Shown piece by piece: positions 8,335-8,880 of a stretch of DNA of 64,000 nucleotides (its first letter is position 1; each line of letters starts with the position of its first letter). Source of the DNA: Echinicola marina. Its GTDB lineage: Bacteria; Bacteroidota; Bacteroidia; Cytophagales; Cyclobacteriaceae. Made by a program: the position numbers and the translations under genes. The notes under the pieces were generated by a model, which did no database searches, was not told the origin of the DNA, and was given only the letters and a program-made list of their open reading frames with translations. The stretch spans positions 1,801,001 through 1,865,000 of the forward strand of contig NZ_CP080025.1 in the NCBI RefSeq assembly GCF_020463795.1, in the 5' to 3' direction.

Positions 8335-8880
8335 TCACTTAAAATTTTGATTGGGCAATTGATTATATGCTAGGTCATTGCTTTTTATTATAGTCCAGGT
8401 CCAGTTGTCATCTGGCAATGCCCATGTAACTTCGCAAACTACGGGAATATTTATTCCGTTGATGGATCCAGTTTGGTTTGAAGTTACCGGCCATTCAGTG
8501 GGCCGCTCATCATCTTTTTCTTTGAATCTCAAGCAACTGAATTTTTCAAAATGACCATCTTTGTCAAGATGGAAAACCCTGGATGCTTTTGAGTCTTGAC
8601 TGTTTACCCCGCATTATGCATTAGCCTATCTATTACGACCTGAAACTACTTTAAAATCAGTCGCTTCGCTGCTGTTTTCGATTTCACCATAGCGATGCTA
8701 TGATTCAATCTCCAAACAGCCTGATTTTCTTGTAGTTTCAGTTCTCATAACGATTCCTAATGTATAATGCGGGTTTATGGTGGCTTTGGCGGTATTTTGG
8801 TTGATGGGTTACCAAGAAATAAAGGGTTGTAAGGCAGCAGATCGAAACCAGACCATTTCTACCAGAAACCATGATAAGAA
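8335..8880 (-). pseudogene. Broken DUF6544 (formerly DUF6920)-like gene
   Basis: Reading leftward from about 8880, the frame gives a DUF6544-like C-terminal half: VEMVWFRSAALQPFISW, then a stop, then PINQNTAKATIN; after the inserted element at 8607-8773 it continues SQDSKASRVFHLDKDGHFEK and ends with INGINIPVVCEVTWALPDDN and AYNQLPNQNFK. Family members have FxEDG..RF, the NGI.IP..eaiW motif and IxYN near the C-terminus, which are all recognisable. Three lesions are visible: the N-terminal half is missing beyond about 8880, TAA at 8811-8809 replaces the Glu codon expected in W-E-P-I, and a 167-bp fold-back element splits the frame. The rest of the frame is clean, so decay looks recent. Family assignment is from memory of the motif pattern. 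Confidence 0.8.
8607..8773. mobile_element. 167-bp fold-back (MITE-like) element in the DUF6544 pseudogene
   Basis: The ends are inverted repeats: cccgcattatgcattag at 8608-8624 and its near-complement ctaatgtataatgcggg at 8757-8773. Inside, tgaaactac / gtagtttca and aaaatcag / ctgatttt continue the pairing, then gctgttt / aaacagc and catagc / gctatg, so the whole element folds into one long imperfect hairpin. TTTA flanks both sides (8603-8606 and 8774-8777). Joining the flanks with a single TTTA restores the host frame exactly (A-T-I-N-S-Q-D-S). It has no coding capacity and must depend on a transposase in trans. No second copy was noticed in the window. Confidence 0.85.

Follow-up and report, generated by a model that had tools for sequence, protein, structure and literature searches.

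The window, the 64-kb stretch of DNA that we analysed, carries at positions 8608-8773 a copy of a MITE that very probably owes its movement to an IS1380-family DDE transposase acting in trans, with cutting at TTNAA and a 5-bp target duplication. The four features by which MITEs are recognised are all present: the element is short and without a transposase gene, it is bounded by inverted repeats, its duplications have a constant length, and its copies are dispersed and matched by empty sites. The family is new, as judged by its absence from the literature searched, and its kind is well known.

An earlier note on this DNA had described a non-coding element of 167 bp at 8607-8773 with 17-bp terminal inverted repeats and nested pairing. 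The location stands, but the element is 166 bp long (8608-8773) and base 8607 belongs to the flank. The limits of this plus-strand copy, a member of subfamily A with at least 48 match rows in its own genome, are set by the CCCG...CGGG ends found throughout the family. Both the repeats and the pairing were found. The terminal repeats are 17 bp long and 94% identical, with CCCGCATTATGCATTAG on the left (8608-8624, plus strand, by repeat comparison and genome motif count) and CCCGCATTATACATTAG, as read on the minus strand, on the right (8757-8773). When up to two mismatches are allowed, the end motif CCCGNNNTATGCATTAG occurs at 56+52 sites in the genome, compared with 6+6 for the reversed pattern. 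Inside the ends lies a hairpin whose 5' and 3' arms (8637-8660 and 8721-8744) are recognised by nested pairing and by two-sided base changes across the family. Stop codons occur in all six frames, in agreement with the claim that the element is non-coding. As single-stranded DNA the window copy folds with -35.4 kcal/mol (z -9.4) and as RNA with -62.1 (z -10.8), and 0 of 200 shuffles were equally good in either case. A search of Rfam up to E 1 gave nothing overlapping the MITE; we rejected a known RNA family, as the sole match was below threshold and outside the element.

The target was read from the flanks of 38 copies in this genome. Identical 5-bp flanks were found in 31 of these 38 copies, and all 31 are TTNAA (13 TTTAA, 13 TTAAA, 3 TTGAA and 2 TTCAA). 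The family duplication is therefore a 5-bp TTNAA, and we rejected the 4-bp TTTA-type duplication that had been proposed earlier. The seven exceptions include the window copy itself, whose flanks TTTAC (8603-8607) and TTTAT (8774-8778), as read from the sequence, share 4 of 5 letters and form an imperfect duplication. Also among them are one 5'-truncated copy, one copy with TTTAA/TTAAA and two with the common flanks TATAA/TTTAA. The exceptional copies L047 and L029 give TTTAA/TTTAA and TTGAA/TTGAA after one end is shifted by one to four bases by eye.

Empty sites in relatives were sought at two places besides the window locus, with 4 of 4 congener loci found at L024 and 7 of 9 at L041; the element was matched in 0 of the 4 and 0 of the 7 congener loci compared. 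In the congener G001 both places gave exact empty sites. At L024 the G001 sequence matches the two flanks with 95.6% and 95.4% identity, their overlap being exactly the 5 bases of one TTAAA; at L041 the identities are 79.0% and 81.6%, again with a single TTAAA. The G003 locus at L041 holds ~500 other bases between the flanks.

In its own genome (one contig of 5.69 Mb) the MITE has at least 48 match rows, which correspond to roughly 40 places; the count is a minimum since 40 of 60 candidates were scored, three of the rows repeat places already matched on the other strand, and several others are parts of split copies. The element thus recurs, which disposes of the possibility that there were no other copies anywhere. 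The copies read fall into two subfamilies, A (CCCGCATTATGCATTAGCC..., including the window copy) and B (CCCGAAATATGCATTAGCT..., with a right end that is mostly CCCGGATTATGCATTAG). Among the 166-bp copies, a single substitution separates the window copy from its closest sister; five other A copies differ from it at 4-7 bases and the closest B copies at 22. Together, the roughly 40 places, the 5-bp duplications, the two empty sites and the single substitution bear out the earlier description of a genuine, non-autonomous and fairly recent transposable element.

Length variants among the copies read span 186-248 bp, and one place of 376 bp has a B copy, flanked by a TTAAA duplication of its own, nested inside an A copy. 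We also read six shorter forms (52, 52, 70, 103, 103 and 143 bp), four of which have identical TTNAA on both sides. The 52-bp forms lie at L090 and L092. Shortened copies in the congener G006 include two identical ones of 123 bp (L150 501-623 and L151 474-596), each with a matching duplication that differs from the other's (TTAAA and TTTAA), and a 51-bp form (L149 540-590) with the non-matching flanks TTGAA/TTTAA. The 123-bp and 51-52-bp forms suggest that internally deleted derivatives of the MITE still move, and those of 51-52 bp hint that movement does not need the inner stem. At L035 (1722455-1722688 of the window's genome) two MITE copies, one at 1056-1221 and one from 1227 onward, abut with one TTCAA between them, and the second looks as if it had inserted into the target duplicate of the first.

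We considered the IS1380 family as a source of the transposase because of the TTNAA target and the CCC ends, which we take to point to this family. When the 11 genus genomes were searched with PF13701, one match exceeded the cut-off, in the congener G004. This helper candidate is an IS1380-family element of 1403 bp (L074 1376-2778) with TTCAA on both sides and the ends CCGTGATTATGCAATAG and CCCGGATTATGCATTAG. Its 440-aa transposase scores 259.7 bits against the NCBIfam model transpos_IS1380 (NF033539; cut-off 180) and 153.9 bits against PF13701 (cut-off 34.7). The right end of this IS agrees with the usual right end of subfamily B in 17 of 17 letters and with the A end in 16 of 17; the 17-bp ends and the 5-bp TTNAA duplication of the MITE match those of this IS1380 element. 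Where the earlier note could name no helper, G004 offers a candidate with matching ends and target. The MITE differs from the IS in that it is 166 bp long, has no transposase gene and has an unrelated interior, and in that both of its ends resemble the right end of the IS. In blastn comparisons of A and B copies with the G004 IS, two relics and L132, similarity was confined to the 17-bp end, which gives no sign of a MITE interior derived from the IS by deletion. A 5-bp duplication is described for IS1247 of the IS1380 family in the available part of its report (PMC3281130).

The G004 IS (L074 1371-2783) sits in a frame that appears to resemble a heavy-metal P-type ATPase. Weak PF13701 matches, all below the cut-off, occurred in 411-aa frames of G004 (6) and G006 (4); these were set aside, as a TTNAA-CCC / GGG-TTNAA pair around the frame was absent in 10 of 10 loci.

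Relatives of the G004 transposase with 72-95% identity were found at eleven loci from 8 named genomes, which include Algoriphagus, Fulvivirga, Chitinophagales, Aquimarina and Ulvibacter. Among 148 sampled genomes of the family, 20 had a transposase match, several of them weak, and a search by sequence for relatives among solved structures gave none up to E 0.1. At 10 of the 11 named loci the gene is flanked left and right by a similar end motif, with no more than 2 substitutions; L131 is truncated at one side. Only L134 among the named IS loci has the identical TTNAA at either end; L132 and L133 have TTAAA/TTTAA, L129, L135 and L136 have a non-TTNAA sequence on one side, and the others are cut by contig ends.

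TGCAATAG is the predominant left end of these IS1380 elements and TGCATTAG the predominant right end; L134 carries TGCAATAG on both sides. The left end TGCAATAG is unlike both MITE ends in the window's genome and is absent among the end sites listed there at 0 and 1 mismatch. MITE copies in G007 and G024 have CAATAG at both ends. An origin of the MITE ends by inverted duplication of one IS end fits these observations.

Under the mechanism that we propose, two 17-bp ends, predicted to bind transposase, would enclose a non-coding hairpin. An IS1380-family DDE transposase, of the G004 type or from a lost close relative, would move this unit in trans and would cut TTNAA with a 5-base stagger, leaving the 5-bp TTNAA duplication. 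The right end of such an IS would be the source of both MITE ends, and the host lineage may have lost its helper after bursts of movement, so stranding the copies.

MITE matches were found in 13 of 39 related genomes, including 10 of the 11 genomes of the genus, G002 being without any. For this family there is now a helper candidate, along with an exact rule for the target, TTNAA. Plasmid-borne copies were rejected, as a search of 72,556 plasmid records gave no match. The exact TTNAA+CCCGNNNTATGCATTAG pattern occurs in 9 of the 11 genus genomes, and the reversed control has 0 in all 11. Forward and reverse counts of these exact ends are 31+29 in the window's genome, 129+148 in G010, 38+37 in G006, 3+4 in G001, 3+4 in G003, 2+2 in G009, 0+5 in G004, 0+1 in G008, 1+0 in G007 and 0 in G002 and G005. 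Copy number does not track helper presence: the intact IS is in G004, where these ends number 0+5, compared with 129+148 and 38+37 in G010 and G006, which have no intact helper. In G010, the 277 exact ends represent a very high copy number, and an intact helper was absent by protein search.

Of the 11 genus genomes, only G004 yielded a full-length IS1380 transposase. Relics occur in G005 (two places) and in G010, where a 36-codon end piece runs straight into a MITE copy; a relic split by the MITE was rejected, as no relic lies beyond the MITE and the two merely abut. Because an intact helper was detected in only 1 of 11 genomes, the MITE family seems to have outlived its helper in most of the genus. 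In the single contig of the window's genome, neither profile nor protein search found an IS1380 transposase, and a helper resident there was rejected on these grounds. Because no such transposase was detected in the host, the copies in this genome look orphaned.

The absence of a helper from the window's genome and the disagreement between helper presence and copy number across the genus are also what would be seen if an unsampled transposase outside the IS1380 family, with similar ends and target, moved the MITE. We consider this improbable, given that an IS1380 element of the same genus has 17 identical end letters and TTNAA precisely at its boundary, and that in other named Bacteroidota genomes IS1380 elements have similar ends. 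Further, among the end sites listed for the window's genome, one facing pair lies 1-3 kb apart (2684876 / 2686489); it starts at a MITE that has its own right end, and the two frames that it encloses are not transposase-like by eye.

The inner hairpin is not part of the 17-bp ends common to the MITE and the IS. We analysed its covariation in 27 oriented copies without large inserts (26 distinct; 16 from the window's genome and the rest from eight other genomes). In a structure of 52 pairs, 92.9% of cells pair across these copies, a figure favoured by the fact that the structure was taken from the window copy. Two-sided changes occur in 15 of the 52 pairs (mean of 500 shuffles 4.8, none of which reached 15; best slid control 7) and further pair types number 27 (shuffled mean 22.1), with related rows inflating both counts. 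Two of the strongest covarying pairs change from C-G to A-U and from A-U to G-C, in 10 sequences each. The inner helices are 91.5-98.7% paired, compared with 87.8% for the end repeat, a gap that arises mainly because of three end positions (5-7) that are variable in the IS too.

Either selection or arm-to-arm correction could have produced this covariation. It is conceivable, and in our judgement rather doubtful, that the inner hairpin is actively maintained, whether as a bidirectional transcript-end hairpin or as a cruciform for transposition or arm-to-arm correction; this reading draws on the joint changes of the arms across species and on the gathering of copies at stop codons and between converging genes. 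If it were, the hairpin would confer something, tolerated or used by the host or serving transposition. With its covarying inner stem, this family allows the question why the interiors of MITEs are hairpins at all to be tested.

To assess where the copies lie, we let frames of 110 codons or more stand for genes and considered 43 places (37 copies and 6 short forms). Only 1 of the 43 MITE places lies inside a frame, compared with 387 of 519 TTNAA sites in the window (Fisher p 3e-22), a background that is one 64-kb window with heuristic genes and in which a copy in a since-decayed gene, the window copy included, counts as intergenic. The ratio of convergent to divergent positions is 15:3 at MITE places and 21:28 in this background (Fisher p 0.005), with one region duplicated (L050/L051). 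A stop codon is no more than 15 nt away at 11 of the other 42 MITE places, compared with 11 of 132 window sites outside frames (Fisher p 0.006). In a cruder count, none of 37 fell in a frame, and the convergent to divergent ratio was 15:2. Purifying selection against insertions in genes and promoters is the plain explanation. High copy number without harm may have a reason in the target itself, because TTNAA often holds the stop codon TAA, which the duplication re-creates at a gene end.

Y1 transposition is not known to make a target duplication, and the consistent 5-bp duplications and exact empty sites consequently make it extremely unlikely that a Y1 single-strand (RAYT/IS200-like) transposase spread the element as a palindrome of the REP/BIME type, even though its strong hairpin with covarying arms, the small palindromic inserts in some copies and the preference for gene ends would suit such a palindrome. 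An origin as a conserved host RNA or regulatory hairpin, rather than a mobile element, would agree with a stem kept by two-sided base changes and with the many places at 3' gene ends (15 of 43 between converging frames), but has next to no chance of being correct, as Rfam gave no match up to E 1 over the element and as the empty sites in a congener, which refute it, and the target duplications mark an insertion; later use as a terminator is possible.

The MITE copy of the window lies in the remains of a minus-strand DUF6544 gene. Pfam PF20181 matches window positions 8335-8604 with 47.0 bits (cut-off 25), which upholds the earlier placement of the insertion within a DUF6544-like frame. Downstream of the insertion is a C-terminal remnant (8353-8602), defined by PF20181 and by intact orthologues in G009 and G001; upstream is a short remnant with an in-frame TAA (8779-8877), defined by comparison with the orthologues. 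Among the 11 genus genomes, the DUF6544 flank was matched, besides in its own genome, only in G009 and G001, where the orthologues are uninterrupted open segments of 388 and 379 codons in the same neighbourhood and lack the MITE. We therefore rejected the MITE as normal DUF6544 coding sequence. By hand count, the codons flanking the insertion align to both orthologues with length unchanged, so that the earlier claim that removal of the element restores the frame holds locally; it does not hold for the gene, which is truncated and has an in-frame TAA. Only its last 116-118 codons are retained, and the preceding 261-271 (by the two orthologues) were found nowhere in the 64-kb window. Lacking these 5' codons and having a TAA in frame ahead of the insertion, the gene is a truncated pseudogene that loss of the MITE would not revive.

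Our literature search, which covered open titles and abstract starts and had subscription journals and ISfinder outside its scope, found no IS1380-driven MITE and nothing on MITEs of Cyclobacterium or Algoriphagus. MITEs related to other IS families are known, one of them from Cardinium, which belongs to the Bacteroidota. This element, MITECca01, is ~240 bp long, is derived from IS982 and has ends like those of a resident IS; it differs from the present MITE in its IS family and in that the intact parental IS remains in the Cardinium genome, according to the available part of the report (PMC9769881). The accessible text on MITEPye1 of Paracoccus yeei describes an IS1182-related MITE that, like ours, forms a hairpin, has terminal and direct repeats and is mostly intergenic; it differs in its IS family and in having 1-3 copies per chromosome (PMC11578231). 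For piggyBac, the portion of the source at hand gives a TTAA target, CCC/GGG as the usual first bases of the terminal inverted repeats, and a distant relationship to IS1380 transposases (PMC10140906). This eukaryotic system differs in its 4-bp TTAA target and in a transposase of ~580 aa, and its likeness to the MITE may be taken as an analogy only.

The palindromic insert TACCTGGCGGWAGACAGGT has 18 sites when up to two mismatches are allowed, 13 of which are inside MITE copies. The other 5 (L142-L146; G000:C1:719718, 1592078, 2487317, 2911982 and 4743049) appear by eye to belong to a second dispersed repeat family, and the loops of the MITE apparently have pieces in common with other repeats.
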